A DNA stretch of 64,000 bases. Origin: Albugo candida (taxonomy: Eukaryota > Oomycota > Peronosporomycetes > Albuginales > Albuginaceae). Shown here piece after piece: positions 32,156 through 41,717 of the stretch (positions are counted from its first letter, which is position 1; each line of letters opens with the position of its first letter). The stretch lies in assembly GCA_905220665.1 (NCBI GenBank), contig CAJNAR010000017.1, positions 124,001-188,000 of the forward strand, read 5' to 3'. A model generated the notes under the pieces. That model did not search any database, had not been told where the DNA came from, and saw nothing but the letters and a program-made list of their open reading frames with translations. A program made the translations under genes and the position numbers.

Positions 32156-35100
32156 ATGAACGCTCTATGTCTTTATATTGTGTACGACGTTCTCTCTTTC
32201 TCCTTCCGCGCACAAACGACAAATGACATTGGATTTCCAGACACTCGCGTGAGTCTATCGAGCACTCGAGTCATTCCGTTTTCATGCTTTGGCTCCACAC
32301 GCAATTGCCCCGATAATGGCGATTATGTGGCAGCTGGAGGGAATCTCACAGTCACAATTCTTGAAATGCGAAATCTTCCAAATATGGATCACTTTGGTCA
32401 CGCAACGCTGCGCACTGACGCATTTCTTCGGGTGCGTGTCGGGAACACGACGAAAACTTCGGGCGTGATTTCGAATTCTCTGAATCCCATGTGGCATGCA
32501 TGTGCTCGGGCACAATGCGATGGGAAAAACGATATTGTTCGAGATCTAAATTTCGGATTTCGACGAGCTGGCACACCGATCACACTCGAAATATGGGATC
32601 AAGACAGCGGTTTAGAGTTCCAAGACGATCTCATAGAAACGAAAAAAATGAATGTGATCTACTGCTCGACATTCACAGCTAGAACCCAGCGTGTGAATCG
32701 AGACGATTCGCCATGGAAACTCGCCTTCCAGCCTTATTGTGTGGAACAAAGCTGGATTCCGCTTAGTGATAACGCAAAGGACAGTTGTTACAATGAAACC
32801 ACTGGCAAAGTGTCCACGCGGATTCCCTGTATGCTTGTTCGGCTGTCTGTACTACCCTTCCAAATGCGTGTTGAGCAGGTTTATGTCCAGAATGCGTCGA
32901 TACTTGGCGGCATGGCGGGCTATTATCCAGAGTATCGAAATAGCAGCAACTCGAGTCAAGGGATTTACGGTCGCGTGTTTACGGACTTGAGCCATCGATT
33001 AGTGAATTATTATCGCATGGATCGATCAAAAGGTGGATTACTCGTTCGACTTCAAAGTGATTTACAAAACTCTCCCGGAAATCTCACACTCTTTGATACG
33101 TTTGGATTCGCTCCATACGCGAGAATCACTATCAATTATCCTGCAGAGATGTTTGTGTTTCGAGTTGTGGAGGACGCAAAATCGCTACCCGAGTGGCTGA
33201 CCACTTCTTTCGGATGGACAGTATCTCGAGAATTCGCTCATATCACCAATTTTGGAGGTGAGTATGTCGCGTACGCTCGAAATGTCTCCCCACATGCTAT
33301 TAATTCGTACGGTGACGCAATGGACAGCGGAATTATCATTGGAATGAACGTTCCGAGAGACTTTGCCGACAAAACTGTTGGTATGTATTTCATCATATTA
33401 CAGCCCAAAGAATTCACTGAAACCATTACGTCTGAGATTTCGATCCAATTTTCCCGAATGCCTGCGTTATCGCTTTTAATTCAATTCGGAATCACATTTA
33501 TGCTTCTTTGTGGGATGTTATTACGTTTCCTGCAGCGACTCAATTGGCGAATTGATAGAACCTCGAGCTTTTTTGCTCAACAAGGTGCACTCACGTCTAC
33601 ATTGCCAGTGAAATCGATCAACAAGGCTGGAAGGAAGCAGTCTGTTTTCCCAATTTTCACAAAAAAGCCCACAAAAGAGACCTCAGCCTTCTCAACGCCA
33701 AACACACTAGCCATGCTCTTTTCCAGCGCAGAAAGCGAGGACCTCAACAGTATGCAAATTCGACGATTTGCGTATGCAAACTGCATCGTCTACCTATCTC
33801 TAGCCACACCGTTTATGATCCTGATTGCTTGGGGAGTAAGCGCTATCTTTATTGTAAGCCCGTCCTCACTTGGCCTAGCTATCATTTTCTTAGGCTCTGC
33901 AGTGCTGCTCGTTACATTTGCGCTTTTACGATGGAAACATACGGGCTGGCGAATGTCGAATACGATCTGTATGCTTCTATTGCTGTCGTTCCTCTTCACA
34001 TTCATATTTTTATTTTCTGCAACGTTGACCGATCCACGTATGTTTCTGGGCGGCAAGGACTTGGATATCTCAGCGATCACATCGATTTTTCTAACAGCGA
34101 ATTTGATGCCAATGCTTTGTATCGCATTCTCAAATGATCAAAAGCTTCGTAAATCGCTTTCTCAAGTCCTCGCAGTCATCGGAGCGTCAAAGAAAATAAA
34201 TGTCGTCAAGCAACAATTCAAGAAATTCGGTACTTTGGGGCTCCAGCTTAAGGCCGCCCGAGTAAAACAGGGCAAAGGAGATGCGGTATCACACAAAGGA
34301 TCCATGTTCACACCTCTTATGGGCAATCATTACTCTGTCAGCTCCAAGATCCCAGGATTAGAGCGTGCAGATGTATTACAATCTTCTTTCGTGACACTCG
34401 ACAAGGACAAGCGAAATCAGCAGAATTATCGATTGTATCGATACGCTATCTTTGTGCTGGCAAGTTACATTATGGTCGCGTTGATTTGGACAAAGAATGG
34501 AACATTAGCTATCGGCATCACATCAACTGTTTTGTTTGTAGATTTTTGTATGTTTTTATTAGCACGTGGAGCTTTGAAATGGTCAGCCGGATTTATGGTT
34601 TTTCTCATGAGCGTTGCAAGAGTGTGTATGATCATTACGGCTGGAGAATATTGGATTATAGGACACGCTCTTCTTTACGCCGCTATTGGAATTGCGTTGA
34701 CCCGAGAGATTGTAGGCAAGCAACTACCACGGATGACGGAACGTGAGGCGAGCATGGTGGTGGTATTCGGAATTGAGAACGCTAACGCCCGCCCGCAATA
34801 TGATCTCTCAACAAAGCCAGAGTTTGTATTGGGTCTTCTCTCTTTTGTGTATGTGTTCCTACTGCTTTCTGTCGGGTTTCGTGATGACACAAAGGTCTCA
34901 TTTCGAGTCGGAATTTTCGGAGAAGAGTGGCCTCTGTGGCTATTTGGCGTTCTTTCGTTCGTTTTTGTGGTGTTTAGTGGCGTAGCGCTCTCTACCAGCC
35001 GGGCTTTGTTTCTCCAGAAAGAAGGATTATTACCAGCAGATGCCACGCGTTTATACTTTTTCTCGAAATCGTGGACACTTCCTTTCATTCTCGCATCTGC

Positions 35101-38100
35101 TTTGGAAGTTTTGTTGATTTGCGCTGGACTGTTTATTTATGCTTCTACAGGATCAAGTTTCGCATTAGAAGTGTCCATTTTTGGTCCTCTACTTTTCATC
35201 ACAGCGTTGCCAGTGTACACGCATTGGTGTCGCAACGACTATCGCTTGGTTGTTTGGCCTCCAGACGATTCAGAAGTCGCATTCGATGAAGAGGAAGACG
35301 ATTCAACGGAATACGCATTGGAGAAAGATGTCGTTGTCGAGCGTTTGCGCCAAAAAATCACTTCACTGCATGATCGAAATGGTGGGGAGCCTACTACTTT
35401 CAGCCAAAGTCCTTTATCGTTCAAGACTGTGTGGAGCGATGACGGTGGAGAGAATGAAAACGGTTTGAAAGAAAATGAGTTGGAAGAAGTGAGCTTAAAA
35501 GGGGGACTTTTTTTTGGTGGAAATCGACTTGCAAAGATCAATTATGATCGAGAACGAAGGAGATCTTTGGTGGGAGAAAGCGGCATGATCCATCATGAGG
35601 TAAGGATACATTCGCTCGATACCGAATTAGATACAGCGAAGACGTTAGATTCGACGATTAACGCCAAAAAGCCTCATGAAATCCCTGAGCCACGTCCGTT
35701 CATTCTTGGGCTTCGCGAGTACTTGAGCTACTTTCGAGAAATTCTAATAAATCTCCATCATACAGCTATTGAGGTGATGCAATTCATAAAAGAGAAGCGT
35801 CAAGAAAAGTCTCATGAGCAAAATTGGGATGAAATCGATTTCAAAGCTGTGAGTATGTACAAAGCATTTCTCTCAGGATATTTATTACCCAAAGAATATG
35901 CAATTCTGCTTTGTTTTGCCGCACACTTGCTTCTCCTATTCATATTTGGAATGGTTGTGACTGCAACTGAAGAGCCTGGATGGCTGGGTCATCTCATTTG
36001 GACTGGTGGAATTACTTTCATCTTCTCATTCTTCCCAATTGTAAAGTATTTTCGCATCGGAAATGTGGTCAGTATGGACATCAAACGCAGTCTGACGTTC
36101 AGTTATGCGTTTGCGTGGCTAACGGGAATCGTATTTTTCGTATTGTTCTTCAAAATGAGTCTCAACACAATCGAGCCATTGGTGATTTTCTCCGTGCTGT
36201 TCTACACGCCAGTCTTTATGATTCTCATCGTTACCATATATAAATGGCGCCTGGATGGGTATGAGCCTTCACGGGTCATTAAACGCACATCTATCGCTGG
36301 AGCTTTGATGATCGGCGTGTGGATTTTCGAGATTTATGTGTTTATGAGCGCGAAATTTGGTATTTTTCTCATTCTCTTGGGCGTTTTGATGCTCTTCCTT
36401 AGCTATTATTTTACTCAGTACATCCGCAATGACATGTACCTCGCACCAAAACACCAGATACAAGTACGCACAATCATTTGGGTGACCACAATTGCTGCTA
36501 TTGGATTTGGATTTTTTTTCGGGCTCAATTTCTTTGCGTGCCTTTCGATCGCAATCGTAGTCATGATCCTAAAAAATGTGCTCACATTTTGTGCTCAATA
36601 TTGGCTTTTATTTCTCAATCACGAAATGGTGCTTTATTTCTCTCCGTATGTGTTTCCAATATACGCTTATGATGCGTATCGAGACGTTGTGATCGACTGC
36701 AACTCGATCTACAAATTCCTTTATCTGACATTTATGCTCGTGTTCGCTTGGGGAGCTGCAGCTGTTCTGTTTGTACAACCGATCGGATTTGGAATTGGAG
36801 TCTGCAGCATTGCCTTGCTCACGTTTGCTGTAACTACGGCTCACCTTTGTGCTTGTACGCCAGTTCAAATGGGTATTGCGACCAAGTTTGTGAGCGAGAA
36901 AATCGTACATGATGCCAGTACCGCCAGTAAAAATGCCTTCGATACAGCAAGAATGAAGTTCCAAATCATCTGCTCGGAATTTGATCGTCAGGAAAACCGT
37001 GAAAAAGTAGCAGCACTAAAAATCCAAGCCATGACTTTGGGCTCGCAAACAAGGAAAATCGCTCGAAACCCGGAAACCGATCTCAAGGATTCTGTGACAG
37101 TAAATCGGAAATGTAGTGCAGAGCTTGCATTAACGATTCATTCTGTGGTAAAATCGTGCTTGAGGACTCCGGACGTTGAGGCGGCGGTCTCAGCAAGCGA
37201 TAGAGTAATGGGAATCCGGGACATGCTCTATGACAGCTTTTCACTCGGGATCGGTCCATTGGGATTTCTATACGCATTCAAAGTGCCAAAAGTAGCATTG
37301 GAGCGTCTCAGACAGAGATACTTTCCTCGTCTTCAGCCTGACGCACAAGTGAGTCCCTACGTCGAAGAACATGGACGACGCAAAGAGAACGGGCATACAT
37401 CGCAAAGACGAAGACGGATGAAGCTACTGGCAAATTTAGTGAGACTTCCCGTTTTGGATGAGGAATTGGATCGTGAATTTCATCACGAAACAAAGTGCGT
37501 GATTCATTTCCAACTGCTGCTTTTGGATGCTGTGGACGCCCGACTTGCTCACACAAAAATACTCCTCCAAAAGTTTTTACGTGAGGATCGCTTCAAACTT
37601 GTTTCGAATGGAATCAATACTCCGTCCAACGTATTCCGTTCCAGCTCACTTGCATCCGTCGATATACCGCTTGTCGCAGTTTGGTTGCAATCCTTGAGCA
37701 CAGAAGCACAAAGTCGCTTTCACAAGTTAAGAACAGCGTTTTCAGACCAAGTCGAGTGTGCAGACGCTCTTATCGATGCTGAAGATGAACAAACGCGTCA
37801 AAACCAGCTGGAATTACGTAAATCATGGCTGCCTCATGAAAAGCTGCAATGTCGAAAACGCTCGGATGAATTCTATGCTCGTCGATATCGCCGTGAAAAG
37901 GAGGGTCAAATCAGTAAAAATGCACCTCTTTCGCATGAGGAGGAGGCGCTTGTGAACGTGCAAGAAAGTATAATGGAAATTGAATCTGGATACTCCTGCA
38001 GTATCGGTCATTTTGGCCGGTCCTTACAATATGTCGATACCGACTTTCCTCCAGATCAGAGCTCTCTGTCAAACTGTTCATGTCAAAACGATGTAAAAGG

Positions 38101-39730
38101 CTGGAAAACCTCCATCCAGATCAATGCTGACTGCAGTCTATTTGATGCTGGAAGCGATCCTGATGATGTTTGTGTGGGAAGGCTTGATGATCTGTGGCTT
38201 CTGAGTGCCATTAGCATCATTGCTGCCTCGGGTGGTATTGATGACGGCAAAGTGGACCCGCTGATTGATCATCTGTTTATCACGAAGCAGATATCCTTGT
38301 CCGGAGCTTACGCGATACGAATCTTCAAGAATTCGCAATGGGAGACCGTTATAGTCGACGACTATTTCCCCGTTCTCGATGAAGCGTGTAAAACTAGCGT
38401 CAATGCGGGAGCAGCTTTCGCGTATAGTCCTCGCTTTGAAGAGCTTTGGGTGCCTTTGTTGGAAAAAGCTTATGCAAAGTATCACGGAGGTTTTGGTGCT
38501 CTGGAGAAGGGATACGTTCATCATGCGCTCCAAGAGTTGACTGGGTATCCATCAGAAGAGATTCTTTTGGCTCAAGCTTCACGCGGTATCATGAAGAAAA
38601 CATTATGGAAAAAAATGGTACGCTTCAAAAGCAACCGATTTCTAATGGGAGCAGGGACGTTGAATCGTGAGCATGCTGACGCTGGGATCTTGAACAGAGG
38701 TCTCGTATTTGGCGCTTGTTATGTCGTGTACGAAGTACGACAGGTTGATCAGTATCAGCTTATACTGCTGCGAAATCCCCCTGGTGATCATCCAGAATGG
38801 AAGGGAGATTGGAGTGATTCTTCTCGTTTCTGGACCAGGCGATTACGAAGGATTTTGAAGTACACGCCAGATGTTCAAGATAATAAATTCTGGATCAGCT
38901 TTGATGATTTTTGCCATGCTTTTCGAAGCCTCTACGTTTGCAGGTATTATGAACCCGCCAAGTGGCCGACCATTACGATACAGGGAGGCTGGAGAAGCAA
39001 CGATTCCGCAGGAGGCTTACCCACAAAACATAACGCAAAGTGTGAAATTACAAAAAATCCTCAATTCTCCTTGCAGCTTGACCGTCCAACAGAGGTTATA
39101 ATCCATGTGACTCAGATCGATCCATCAGGAATCGCTGCTGTTGACGTGCAGCCGTTCGCAATATATGTTGTTACTCCCAGCCACACCGTTGCGAAGAGCG
39201 TTCCTGAGGTCGTTTTGGTCACACAATTAAACAAGGAAAATGTCGTCGCACACAGCGGAGAGGTCAAACGCGAGCGTCACATACAGCTTACGTGTGAGCT
39301 TGCGCCCAAAACGTATACAATCTTAGTGGCCACGTACCGGAAGGATATGGAAGGGAATTTTCGCATGTCGATACAATCCAATTATCCCGTGAAATGTACA
39401 CAATTATGGCCACCGGTACAAAAAGATCAAAATGACGTCACCGCTACCGGGAAAATAGTCCAAAAGATCAAGAGAAATGCAATTGAGAAGAAAAAGGCAC
39501 TGGCGCATAAAATTGCGGCGAGTGCCGAAGTCATGGGTTCTATGATGAAAGACGATGGCTCAATTTTGCGGGAGAGGCTTGCCAAGCAAGTTTTGGCAAC
39601 CGATGACGCTGTCAGAAACGACCCGAAGAACAAATCAGAGTGGATAGAAAGATGGGACGCTGCAGCAGGGAAGCCATTCTATTATAATAGAAGGACAGGT
39701 CGAGCTACCTGGGACCAGCCCAGCAATTGA
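32156..39730 (+). CDS. giant DEK1-like transmembrane calpain, catalytically inactive
   Basis: A single exon of 2524 aa. An N-terminal hydrophobic segment is followed by a C2-like domain (about residues 58-165: GGNLTVTILEMRNLP, RTDAFLRVRVG, LNPMWH). Some twenty or more hydrophobic helices (about 435-1580) are interrupted by cytosolic loops, with a coiled region to about 1990. A calpain core (about 2000-2260), a calpain C2-like domain (about 2270-2400) and a C-terminal WW domain (about 2494-2523, FYYNRRTGRATWDQP) complete it. This is the plan of DEK1/TML-type calpains plus WW. The core lacks the triad: the Cys motif reads GRLDDLWLL (Leu2013 for Cys), the His motif GACYVV (Ala2187 for His), while Asn2207 is kept (RNPPGD). 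It is best read as a pseudoprotease or membrane scaffold. Confidence 0.92.
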   Translation: MNALCLYIVYDVLSFSFRAQTTNDIGFPDTRVSLSSTRVIPFSCFGSTRNCPDNGDYVAAGGNLTVTILEMRNLPNMDHFGHATLRTDAFLRVRVGNTTKTSGVISNSLNPMWHACARAQCDGKNDIVRDLNFGFRRAGTPITLEIWDQDSGLEFQDDLIETKKMNVIYCSTFTARTQRVNRDDSPWKLAFQPYCVEQSWIPLSDNAKDSCYNETTGKVSTRIPCMLVRLSVLPFQMRVEQVYVQNASILGGMAGYYPEYRNSSNSSQGIYGRVFTDLSHRLVNYYRMDRSKGGLLVRLQSDLQNSPGNLTLFDTFGFAPYARITINYPAEMFVFRVVEDAKSLPEWLTTSFGWTVSREFAHITNFGGEYVAYARNVSPHAINSYGDAMDSGIIIGMNVPRDFADKTVGMYFIILQPKEFTETITSEISIQFSRMPALSLLIQFGITFMLLCGMLLRFLQRLNWRIDRTSSFFAQQGALTSTLPVKSINKAGRKQSVFPIFTKKPTKETSAFSTPNTLAMLFSSAESEDLNSMQIRRFAYANCIVYLSLATPFMILIAWGVSAIFIVSPSSLGLAIIFLGSAVLLVTFALLRWKHTGWRMSNTICMLLLLSFLFTFIFLFSATLTDPRMFLGGKDLDISAITSIFLTANLMPMLCIAFSNDQKLRKSLSQVLAVIGASKKINVVKQQFKKFGTLGLQLKAARVKQGKGDAVSHKGSMFTPLMGNHYSVSSKIPGLERADVLQSSFVTLDKDKRNQQNYRLYRYAIFVLASYIMVALIWTKNGTLAIGITSTVLFVDFCMFLLARGALKWSAGFMVFLMSVARVCMIITAGEYWIIGHALLYAAIGIALTREIVGKQLPRMTEREASMVVVFGIENANARPQYDLSTKPEFVLGLLSFVYVFLLLSVGFRDDTKVSFRVGIFGEEWPLWLFGVLSFVFVVFSGVALSTSRALFLQKEGLLPADATRLYFFSKSWTLPFILASALEVLLICAGLFIYASTGSSFALEVSIFGPLLFITALPVYTHWCRNDYRLVVWPPDDSEVAFDEEEDDSTEYALEKDVVVERLRQKITSLHDRNGGEPTTFSQSPLSFKTVWSDDGGENENGLKENELEEVSLKGGLFFGGNRLAKINYDRERRRSLVGESGMIHHEVRIHSLDTELDTAKTLDSTINAKKPHEIPEPRPFILGLREYLSYFREILINLHHTAIEVMQFIKEKRQEKSHEQNWDEIDFKAVSMYKAFLSGYLLPKEYAILLCFAAHLLLLFIFGMVVTATEEPGWLGHLIWTGGITFIFSFFPIVKYFRIGNVVSMDIKRSLTFSYAFAWLTGIVFFVLFFKMSLNTIEPLVIFSVLFYTPVFMILIVTIYKWRLDGYEPSRVIKRTSIAGALMIGVWIFEIYVFMSAKFGIFLILLGVLMLFLSYYFTQYIRNDMYLAPKHQIQVRTIIWVTTIAAIGFGFFFGLNFFACLSIAIVVMILKNVLTFCAQYWLLFLNHEMVLYFSPYVFPIYAYDAYRDVVIDCNSIYKFLYLTFMLVFAWGAAAVLFVQPIGFGIGVCSIALLTFAVTTAHLCACTPVQMGIATKFVSEKIVHDASTASKNAFDTARMKFQIICSEFDRQENREKVAALKIQAMTLGSQTRKIARNPETDLKDSVTVNRKCSAELALTIHSVVKSCLRTPDVEAAVSASDRVMGIRDMLYDSFSLGIGPLGFLYAFKVPKVALERLRQRYFPRLQPDAQVSPYVEEHGRRKENGHTSQRRRRMKLLANLVRLPVLDEELDREFHHETKCVIHFQLLLLDAVDARLAHTKILLQKFLREDRFKLVSNGINTPSNVFRSSSLASVDIPLVAVWLQSLSTEAQSRFHKLRTAFSDQVECADALIDAEDEQTRQNQLELRKSWLPHEKLQCRKRSDEFYARRYRREKEGQISKNAPLSHEEEALVNVQESIMEIESGYSCSIGHFGRSLQYVDTDFPPDQSSLSNCSCQNDVKGWKTSIQINADCSLFDAGSDPDDVCVGRLDDLWLLSAISIIAASGGIDDGKVDPLIDHLFITKQISLSGAYAIRIFKNSQWETVIVDDYFPVLDEACKTSVNAGAAFAYSPRFEELWVPLLEKAYAKYHGGFGALEKGYVHHALQELTGYPSEEILLAQASRGIMKKTLWKKMVRFKSNRFLMGAGTLNREHADAGILNRGLVFGACYVVYEVRQVDQYQLILLRNPPGDHPEWKGDWSDSSRFWTRRLRRILKYTPDVQDNKFWISFDDFCHAFRSLYVCRYYEPAKWPTITIQGGWRSNDSAGGLPTKHNAKCEITKNPQFSLQLDRPTEVIIHVTQIDPSGIAAVDVQPFAIYVVTPSHTVAKSVPEVVLVTQLNKENVVAHSGEVKRERHIQLTCELAPKTYTILVATYRKDMEGNFRMSIQSNYPVKCTQLWPPVQKDQNDVTATGKIVQKIKRNAIEKKKALAHKIAASAEVMGSMMKDDGSILRERLAKQVLATDDAVRNDPKNKSEWIERWDAAAGKPFYYNRRTGRATWDQPSN

Positions 39731-40157: not shown

Positions 40158-41717
40158 CTAATCAAAGTACTCGTAAACACTTGACCGCTTGGATTGCGCA
40201 CTATCCAACTCGAGAGCGATCTGGATGCAAAACAGCGATTTCGAGTCACTGCTGTCTGTAGCGGATAATTCGACTTGATAATTTCCACCCGGCGCGATGA
40301 TTGGAAGTGTCACATTGGCTTCAAGCTCGGCAGTCGCACCCTGCTTTATCGGACAAGTTAAGCCGTACACATAAATGTGACCCAGGCCCAGAGGTAATGG
40401 GACACTCGTATTTCCGCATGCTTTGCTTTGATGTCCAAACACTTGCATGCCTGCAAGTTTAACAGTAAGTTTCAAATTGCCTTCGGTGATGTCCTCCTTC
40501 ACGTCCCCTTTTCCAAAAAGTGAAATTGTTCGTCCCCGCTCGGGTGATTGTGGATTCAGAACCAAAGAGTCAAAATCGACTATAGAGACAGTTTTTGTGG
40601 CACATTGCGAAGCTGAAGCAGATGATGAAAATTCAATTTGGTTGGTGAAGCTTTCATCCAGAATGTCTAGCTCCGCGGTATCATTGAGTAGAGACGCGGT
40701 AGGAAAACTTGGAACCATCGCTATTCCACACTGACCCGAAGGACCATTCTGATCCCGAGAGAGGCGAATGTAACCTCCTTCTCCCCATGTAGTTCCCCAC
40801 GAATTCTTGACCTTCCAAAACTTTTGACCATCTTCAACTCCATAGCCAACAGCGAGCACTCCATGATCAAGTTGTGTCCCACAAGTTTTGTTATACACTC
40901 CGGATTTGTAGAACTGAAAAGATCTGTCGCCTGCATCGATCGCGATGGACACGGGCTGCTGTGCAACCGCTGCTTTGAGCGCAAGCTCATTGTTGGATTC
41001 AACATCCTCGAATCCACTGACGCTTACAACCGGCTTACACGAGCGACAAACTGATTGTGAATGGATGTATGCGTAATCTTCCTCACTACATATGCCTTCG
41101 TGCTCACTGACCCACGAGAAAGCGTGATCCATTAATCCCCCACTGCACCCATGATCGCCATTATGATCACAATCAACCAGCTCTTGTTCAGATAGACTCA
41201 CAAGCTTTCCACTCGAGATAAATGTGGCTCCTTCGATAGCCCCCGTAGTCGAAAAAGCCCAACAAGAGCCACACATTCCTTGATTTTTAACACCGGTTAC
41301 CGCACCTTTTTCAACCCAATCGATGCTGTCGGGGAGGTCGACAGATTGATTATTGAACGAGCTTTTCACCCGAACTTGAGAGAGTCGTTTAGTGAGATAA
41401 TCTTCAGATGCCTCAAATCCATTAAAGCGCTGACGAAATTCTTCATTGCTCAGATGTGAGAACGCGTTGTGTCCCAATTTGAAGCTATTTTCCTGAAGAT
41501 TATGAGTCAGGATGTACACATCGTTGGCGATGTAGGTTTCCAGCCGTTTTGCGTATTCTAACGCATCGGAAAAGGTGAGGTGATGCGCCTTCAACCACGC
41601 TACAAACTCTCCCTCATACTCCATAAACGTTTTCCCATTTACGTGATTTTGAGCAGATATAAGAGATAATGCGATGAGAATACGGGTACTGAATCTGCGC
41701 ATGATTTTCTCTTTCAA
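40158..41717 (-). CDS. secreted papain-type cysteine protease fused to ML lipid-binding domain
   Basis: Secreted C1A peptidase, one exon, 519 aa. A signal peptide (ILIALSLISA, about residues 1-28) precedes an I29-type prodomain (about 30-110), and the mature protease (about 125-345) has catalytic Cys in GMCGSCWAFS, His in LDHGVLAVGYG and Asn in VKNSWGTTWGEGGY, plus GCSGGLMDHA. After a Ser-rich linker (about 355-375) a MD-2-related lipid-recognition (ML/Der p 2) domain follows (about 380-505: TVSIVDF, KLTVKLAGMQVFGHQSKACG, then GLTCPIKQG). This fusion is known from oomycete proteases. The active site is complete, so it should be functional. A role in host-facing digestion is inference. Confidence 0.92.
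   Translation of the reverse strand: MKEKIMRRFSTRILIALSLISAQNHVNGKTFMEYEGEFVAWLKAHHLTFSDALEYAKRLETYIANDVYILTHNLQENSFKLGHNAFSHLSNEEFRQRFNGFEASEDYLTKRLSQVRVKSSFNNQSVDLPDSIDWVEKGAVTGVKNQGMCGSCWAFSTTGAIEGATFISSGKLVSLSEQELVDCDHNGDHGCSGGLMDHAFSWVSEHEGICSEEDYAYIHSQSVCRSCKPVVSVSGFEDVESNNELALKAAVAQQPVSIAIDAGDRSFQFYKSGVYNKTCGTQLDHGVLAVGYGVEDGQKFWKVKNSWGTTWGEGGYIRLSRDQNGPSGQCGIAMVPSFPTASLLNDTAELDILDESFTNQIEFSSSASASQCATKTVSIVDFDSLVLNPQSPERGRTISLFGKGDVKEDITEGNLKLTVKLAGMQVFGHQSKACGNTSVPLPLGLGHIYVYGLTCPIKQGATAELEANVTLPIIAPGGNYQVELSATDSSDSKSLFCIQIALELDSAQSKRSSVYEYFD

Follow-up and report, generated by a model that had tools for sequence, protein, structure and literature searches.

The closest described relatives of the protein analyzed here are the membrane-anchored calpains, which include DEK1, the Type 2 form of the streptophytes. 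Plant DEK1 cannot do without its calcium sites, and its Cys-to-Ser form is null (PMC10762896). A C2-TML-CysPc architecture with a C-terminal WW domain has been described for Albugo and Phytophthora, together with many calpains that have substituted active sites, Ectocarpus being among the organisms with most of them (Zhao, 2012; PMC3563603). Calpains of Types 1, 3, and 4 may miss active-site residues, a non-proteolytic function was considered possible, and the role of the oomycete and brown algal proteins was reported as unknown (Safranek, 2023; PMC10762896). The canonical Cys and His are both absent from the brown algal and oomycete sequences of Fletcher (2026; PMC13413365). As far as these sources go, the essence of the loss in oomycete and brown algal membrane calpains has thus already been published in the reports of 2023 and 2026, and the architecture in that of 2012. 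Here we analyze a gene for such a protein in a stretch of 64,000 nucleotides of Albugo candida (contig CAJNAR010000017.1, positions 124,001 to 188,000, "the window"). The encoded protein differs in nothing structural from the membrane-anchored calpains of Types 3 and 4 that are known from oomycetes and brown algae. As judged from alignments and a predicted model, its clade has lost the catalytic Cys, the catalytic His, and the active-site Trp throughout and retains the calpain fold, the acids of the calcium sites, and the membrane part.

The alignment with calpain-1 (PDB 7x79) places Leu2013 at Cys115, Ala2187 at His272, Asn2207 at Asn296, and Pro2209 at Trp298, and the respective codons are CTG (38192), GCT (38714), AAT, and CCT. 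Alignment and codons thus confirm the preliminary description of this stretch, which had reported that the catalytic Cys and His are absent and that Asn2207 is kept. The Trp next to the Asn is gone as well (NPPG instead of NPWG) and a Calpain_III/CBSW domain is present, two features that go beyond that description. The interval in question, 38120-38960, encodes residues 1989-2269 of the 2524-aa protein. An active cysteine peptidase of family C2 requires Cys, His, and Asn; the window protein has Leu, Ala, and Asn, and thus does not have this triad. CTG differs from a Cys codon (TGY) and GCT from a His codon (CAY) by at least two base changes each, so that one miscalled base explains neither substitution. 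Another A. candida record (P0001), which has the same length as the window protein and is 98% identical to it over residues 1900-2524, also has Leu and Ala at the two positions, and the A. laibachii protein (P0002, 82% identical over the same residues) has Leu and Ser. Given this agreement, the substitutions are not an assembly artefact of the window. The reading frame of 2524 codons is indeed fully open, with 0 internal stops compared to about 143 expected at its base composition.

Relatives were collected in three protein searches, which gather only proteins of similar length that share exact words with the query. The first yielded 81 proteins, of which P0001-P0069 matched with E values of 4e-125 or better and the next one, P0070, with 2.5e-27. 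All 69 proteins above this gap lack Cys and His, have NPP in place of NPW, and retain the Asn (69/69 each). The second search, with the core of a Cafeteria protein as query and only the best 2726 candidates scored, added P0082-P0110, 19 of them (P0083-P0101) without Cys and His and 10 (P0082 and P0102-P0110) with Cys, His, Asn, and Trp. From the third, in which an active membrane calpain was the query, the best 120 of 495 matches were taken, many of them DEK1 proteins of land plants. Together, these are 227 fetched proteins, 88 in the inactive set and 139 others, plus the window protein. The named members of the inactive set belong to Albugo, Lagenidium, Globisporangium, Pythium, Aphanomyces, Achlya, Saprolegnia, Phytophthora, Nothophytophthora, Plasmopara, Ectocarpus, Cafeteria, and Hondaea; metagenomic proteins account for many of the 88, and not all of the relatives need be stramenopiles. 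Among the proteins fetched, neither Cys nor His occurs in any of the 89 inactive rows (the window protein and its 88 close relatives), and Asn and the Pro at the Trp column are each found in 88/89; P0001-P0069 had been grouped by the score gap and P0083-P0101 were assigned after their residues had been read. The other homologues have Cys, His, and Asn in 139/139 cases, where P0070 reads Cys in two alignments and shows a gap by misalignment at this column in two others, and Trp in 138/139, P0170 having a Cys at the Trp column. An inactive C2-TM-calpain-WW protein had been regarded as unusual in the preliminary description, a view that is not supported, as the state is found clade-wide and is already in print. 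One member of the inactive clade, the transcriptome protein P0100, has also lost the Asn and the acids of calcium site 2, which may reflect additional decay, a record of low quality, or an alignment error.

The inactive membrane calpains group as one clade in the trees. The inactive set lies on one side of a branch with a support of 100/99 and in 200/200 bootstrap trees (94- and 68-row trees), both trees having been computed with the catalytic columns included. The 94-row tree was calculated without P0082, which has several tandem cores, and without rows more than 95% identical; the 68-row tree contains 28/89 inactive rows and does not fix where the inactive clade roots among the active membrane calpains. 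A single inactive clade would place the catalytic loss before the split of the named lineages, provided that inheritance was vertical.

A different view of these substitutions has been published, in which the kept Asn, a Cys located upstream, and a pair of His residues might form a working triad in brown algae and oomycetes (Fletcher, 2026; PMC13413365). Matched by spacing only, these residues correspond to C1974, H2122, and H2123 of the window protein, and at the three columns Cys is found in 63/89, His in 75/89, and His in 70/89 rows, respectively. Even when a Cys within two columns of 1974 is accepted and a His at either 2122 or 2123 suffices, the set is present in 66/89 rows and lacking in 23/89. 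His is missing at both columns in 6/89 rows, including that of the named oomycete Pythium insidiosum (P0010). Moreover, the Trp is lost in 89/89 rows and the oxyanion Gln is kept only in 26/89. The catalytic Cys of the papain fold sits at the start of a helix, and in the predicted model the first residue of this helix is Leu2013, not C1974. Residues needed for catalysis would not be expected to vary in this way among the rows, and a core that still cuts by means of a shifted triad is therefore very improbable.

The relationship to DEK1 extends over the membrane part. Profiles of the membrane parts of 19 inactive proteins (the window protein and 18 relatives) and of 9 active proteins aligned over 907 columns with an hhalign E value of 2e-85, the window protein itself matched the profile of the 9 active membrane parts with an E value of 6e-83, and no shuffled control was among the matches. 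The hydropathy analysis revealed 19 hydrophobic segments between residues 438 and 1561, and the membrane part is helical in the model. The assignment to the DEK1-type multi-pass membrane calpains in the preliminary description is thus supported. At least 10 hydrophobic segments are predicted by hydropathy for 85/88 inactive relatives and for 122/139 of the other homologues. The window protein and DEK1 thus share a homologous membrane part and core with kept calcium-site acids, and they differ in the catalytic Cys, His, and Trp, which the window protein lacks, and in an N-terminal C2 and a C-terminal WW domain, which it adds. The linker of streptophyte DEK1 contains a LamG-like domain, whereas no LamG-like Pfam match was obtained for the linker of the window protein in a search with the whole protein, the linker not having been searched by itself.

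The core appears to be under strong protein-level constraint. Among eight regions it is the most conserved one in 8/11 pairwise comparisons, the exceptions being P0002 (a WW domain of 29 residues with 97% compared to 87% for the core), P0066 (with two short N-terminal fragments in the alignment), and P0001 (94-100% in all regions). This ranking, the open frame, and the agreement of P0001 and A. laibachii leave a sequencing error or a decaying pseudogene with a next to negligible probability. In 37 active proteins, a set that was chosen by length and contains P0123, which has no membrane segments, 61 core positions are conserved in at least 90%. In 58 non-redundant inactive rows, 35 of these positions are kept at 90% or more, 18 are intermediate, and 8 are below 10%. 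The latter are located at Cys115, His272, Trp298, and Gly113, at 2171 and 2173 in the stretch before the His that corresponds to the gate loop described for calpain (PMC4057710), and at 1985 and 2148. Hence, Cys, His, Trp, and a neighbor of the Cys make up half of the strongest losses, and the majority of the conserved positions persist. In addition, His2212, Cys2253, and Cys2262 are present in 83, 84, and 83 of the 89 inactive rows and His2292 and Cys2296 in 65/70 and 64/70; His2212 and Cys2253 are not the usual residues in the active set.

The calcium sites are among the features retained. The residues of the two core calcium sites of calpain-1 are listed in Table 3 of PMC4057710. Those that are acids or Gly correspond to G1999, D2004, and E2096 and to E2214, D2221, and D2242 of the window protein, with Glu333 at position 2244, and apart from this last position the window protein has all five acids. 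In the clade, the acids at D2004, E2096, E2214, D2221, and D2242 are found in 89, 84, 86, 86, and 86 of 89 rows, and all five occur together in 83/89 inactive compared to 18/22 active rows. The active set, in this case 21-22 rows about half of which are closely alike, has 13 conserved acidic positions, and 5/5 of those at the calcium sites and 5/8 of the others are acidic in at least 94% of the clade (one-sided exact p of about 0.2, calculated by hand). In the C2 domain, the Asp positions are likewise retained (D78 in 72/73 aligned rows, D88 in 70/72, D148 and D150 in 75/77 each, D158 in 77/79, and Asp157 in 68/79). The counts in the core are suggestive of a specific calcium constraint, which may thus exist.

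Taken together, the data are best explained if the protein is a stramenopile counterpart of DEK1, in which the proteolytic function was lost before the sampled lineages split, provided that inheritance was vertical, and the core was kept as a non-catalytic, calcium-responsive switch or scaffold. We assign to this a probability of roughly 0.6. Selection on a non-proteolytic sensor or scaffold, as proposed in the preliminary description, is therefore still the best reading in view of the strongly conserved core, and the part that attributed the loss to this gene itself is not supported. Cytosolic calcium, perhaps admitted or reported by the membrane part, would bring the two core halves together, as happens when calpains are activated, and the closed form would signal by partner binding via the core surface, the CBSW domain, or the WW domain, and not by cutting. 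Calpain-1 without calcium is blocked by a Trp (PMC4057710), the position of which is occupied by Pro in the window protein. As DEK1 needs both its calcium sites and its Cys and the clade lacks the Cys, the outputs of the two families would have to differ.

Several points weigh against a calcium-responsive, non-catalytic core. The null phenotype of the Cys-to-Ser form of plant DEK1 means that the DEK1 family is not known for a non-proteolytic function. At the Glu333 position (2244) the window protein has Lys, and most of the clade has Thr. This position is mostly non-acidic in active membrane calpains too, and in the model of PMC4057710 Glu333, Met329, and Asp331 are assigned via backbone atoms. 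For the membrane part, the shuffled control excludes a generic similarity of membrane helices less fully than unrelated membrane proteins would. Lastly, the kept calcium-site acids may reflect mere general conservation of the core. If general conservation alone accounted for them, the core could be purely structural, folded and conserved, and not calcium-responsive; the presence of each of the five acids in 84-89 of 89 rows and the Asp positions of the C2 domain speak against this explanation, which we regard as rather unlikely. A more far-reaching version of the calcium-responsive reading is tentative and, in our estimate, somewhat doubtful, namely that an entire eukaryotic lineage turned its DEK1-type protease into a calcium-gated, membrane-tethered pseudoprotease, that the dead cleft, with its Trp wedge changed to Pro, is closed by calcium and binds a partner without cutting it, and that DEK1-type proteins have an ancestral or parallel output without proteolysis.

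The other calpain loci of the genome have to be considered in this context. The Pfam calpain family gave seven matches in six loci in a search of the genome (38.9 Mb, 196 contigs). The preliminary description had suggested looking for an active paralogue; a search of the genome with the DEK1-type membrane part found only the window locus and no second copy, but two other calpain loci do keep Cys/His/Asn motifs. One of them is L004, which has retained Cys, His, and Asn, and the other is L005/L007, a single locus with the motifs in different frames, in which GDCW, HAY, and NPWG were recognized by eye. L002 (G000:C150:583962-587783) and L003 (G000:C146:276518-280570) read A/C and S/R at the Cys/His columns; like the window gene, they lack both residues, and unlike it they have kept Trp at the Trp298 column. 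The catalytic pair is thus absent at 3/6 calpain loci, L006 not having been judged. L006 (G000:C151:121251-124415) shows a partial calpain match and a weak match to androglobin domain IV below the cut-off. The motifs of L004 and L005/L007 would allow a role in trans, in which the window protein influences an active calpain within its cell as a decoy, a substrate presenter, or an inhibitor. Among the inhibitor contacts listed in PMC4057710, the Gly208 column is Gly in 89/89 rows, whereas Gly271 is kept only in 53/89. Such an action in trans seems improbable to us.

The 2524-aa protein has the order C2 - multi-pass membrane part - linker - CysPc - CBSW - WW, including the terminal WW domain noted in the preliminary description, and its core is predicted to fold as a calpain protease core. 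The features are summarized in Table 1.

Table 1. Features of the membrane-anchored pseudo-calpain gene (positions refer to the window).
Feature	Position	Strand	Basis
Whole gene, Type 4 membrane-anchored pseudo-calpain, 2524 aa, one open frame	32156..39730	+	ATG to TGA
C2 domain, residues 62-159	32339..32632	+	Pfam, above cut-off
MEM, multi-pass membrane part, residues 430-1570, DEK1-homologous	33443..36865	+	Hydropathy, profile comparison, model
Linker, residues 1571-1955, mostly helical in model	36866..38020	+	Pfam, predicted model
CysPc-like core, residues 1959-2263, without catalytic Cys and His	38030..38944	+	Pfam Peptidase_C2 (E 6e-56), model
Calcium site 1 loop, residues 1999-2004 (G1999, D2004; plus E2096 at 38441-38443)	38150..38167	+	Mapped from PMC4057710
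Degenerate Cys motif VGRLDDLW, residues 2007-2014, Leu2013 at Cys position	38174..38197	+	Alignment, codons
Degenerate His motif GACY, residues 2186-2189, Ala2187 at His position	38711..38722	+	Alignment, codons
Kept Asn2207 in NPPG replacing NPWG, residues 2207-2210	38774..38785	+	Alignment, codons
Calcium site 2 region (E2214, D2221, D2242)	38795..38881	+	Mapped from PMC4057710
Calpain_III/CBSW domain, residues 2276-2406	38981..39373	+	Pfam, above cut-off
WW domain, residues 2494-2522	39635..39721	+	Pfam, above cut-off

The membrane part (33443-36865) had 0 Foldseek matches to solved structures at an E value of at most 0.001, the best value being 0.69, and its model is of fair quality (mean pLDDT 75). 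At Cys44, Cys170, Cys195, Cys211, and Cys225 of the N-terminal part, all aligned rows (69-78) have Cys, a hint that the N-terminal part, together with the C2 domain, may face the outside or the lumen. The neighboring gene (40158-41717, minus strand) encodes a papain-family protease with an I29 propeptide and a C-terminal ML (E1_DerP2_DerF2) domain.

To our knowledge, CAPN6 and the calpain-like proteins of trypanosomatids are not membrane-anchored proteins of the DEK1 type. They likewise miss catalytic residues, and non-proteolytic roles have been suggested or shown for them (PMC3563603). In the sections of the literature covered by the search, no earlier description of the calcium-site counts and of the Trp-to-Pro mark was found. 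To the known picture of the Type 3 and Type 4 calpains, the present analysis adds a wider clade, the lack of any exception in 89 rows, the exchange of Trp for Pro, the calcium-site counts, and the count against a shifted triad. A known loss is turned into a testable case by its occurrence across the clade, by the Trp-to-Pro mark, and by the counts at the calcium sites. Work on DEK1 has treated it as a protease. In a clade that shares its membrane part and has a dead, conserved core, nature has uncoupled the membrane and calcium functions from proteolysis, so that oomycetes and brown algae allow tests of what the membrane and calcium parts do alone.
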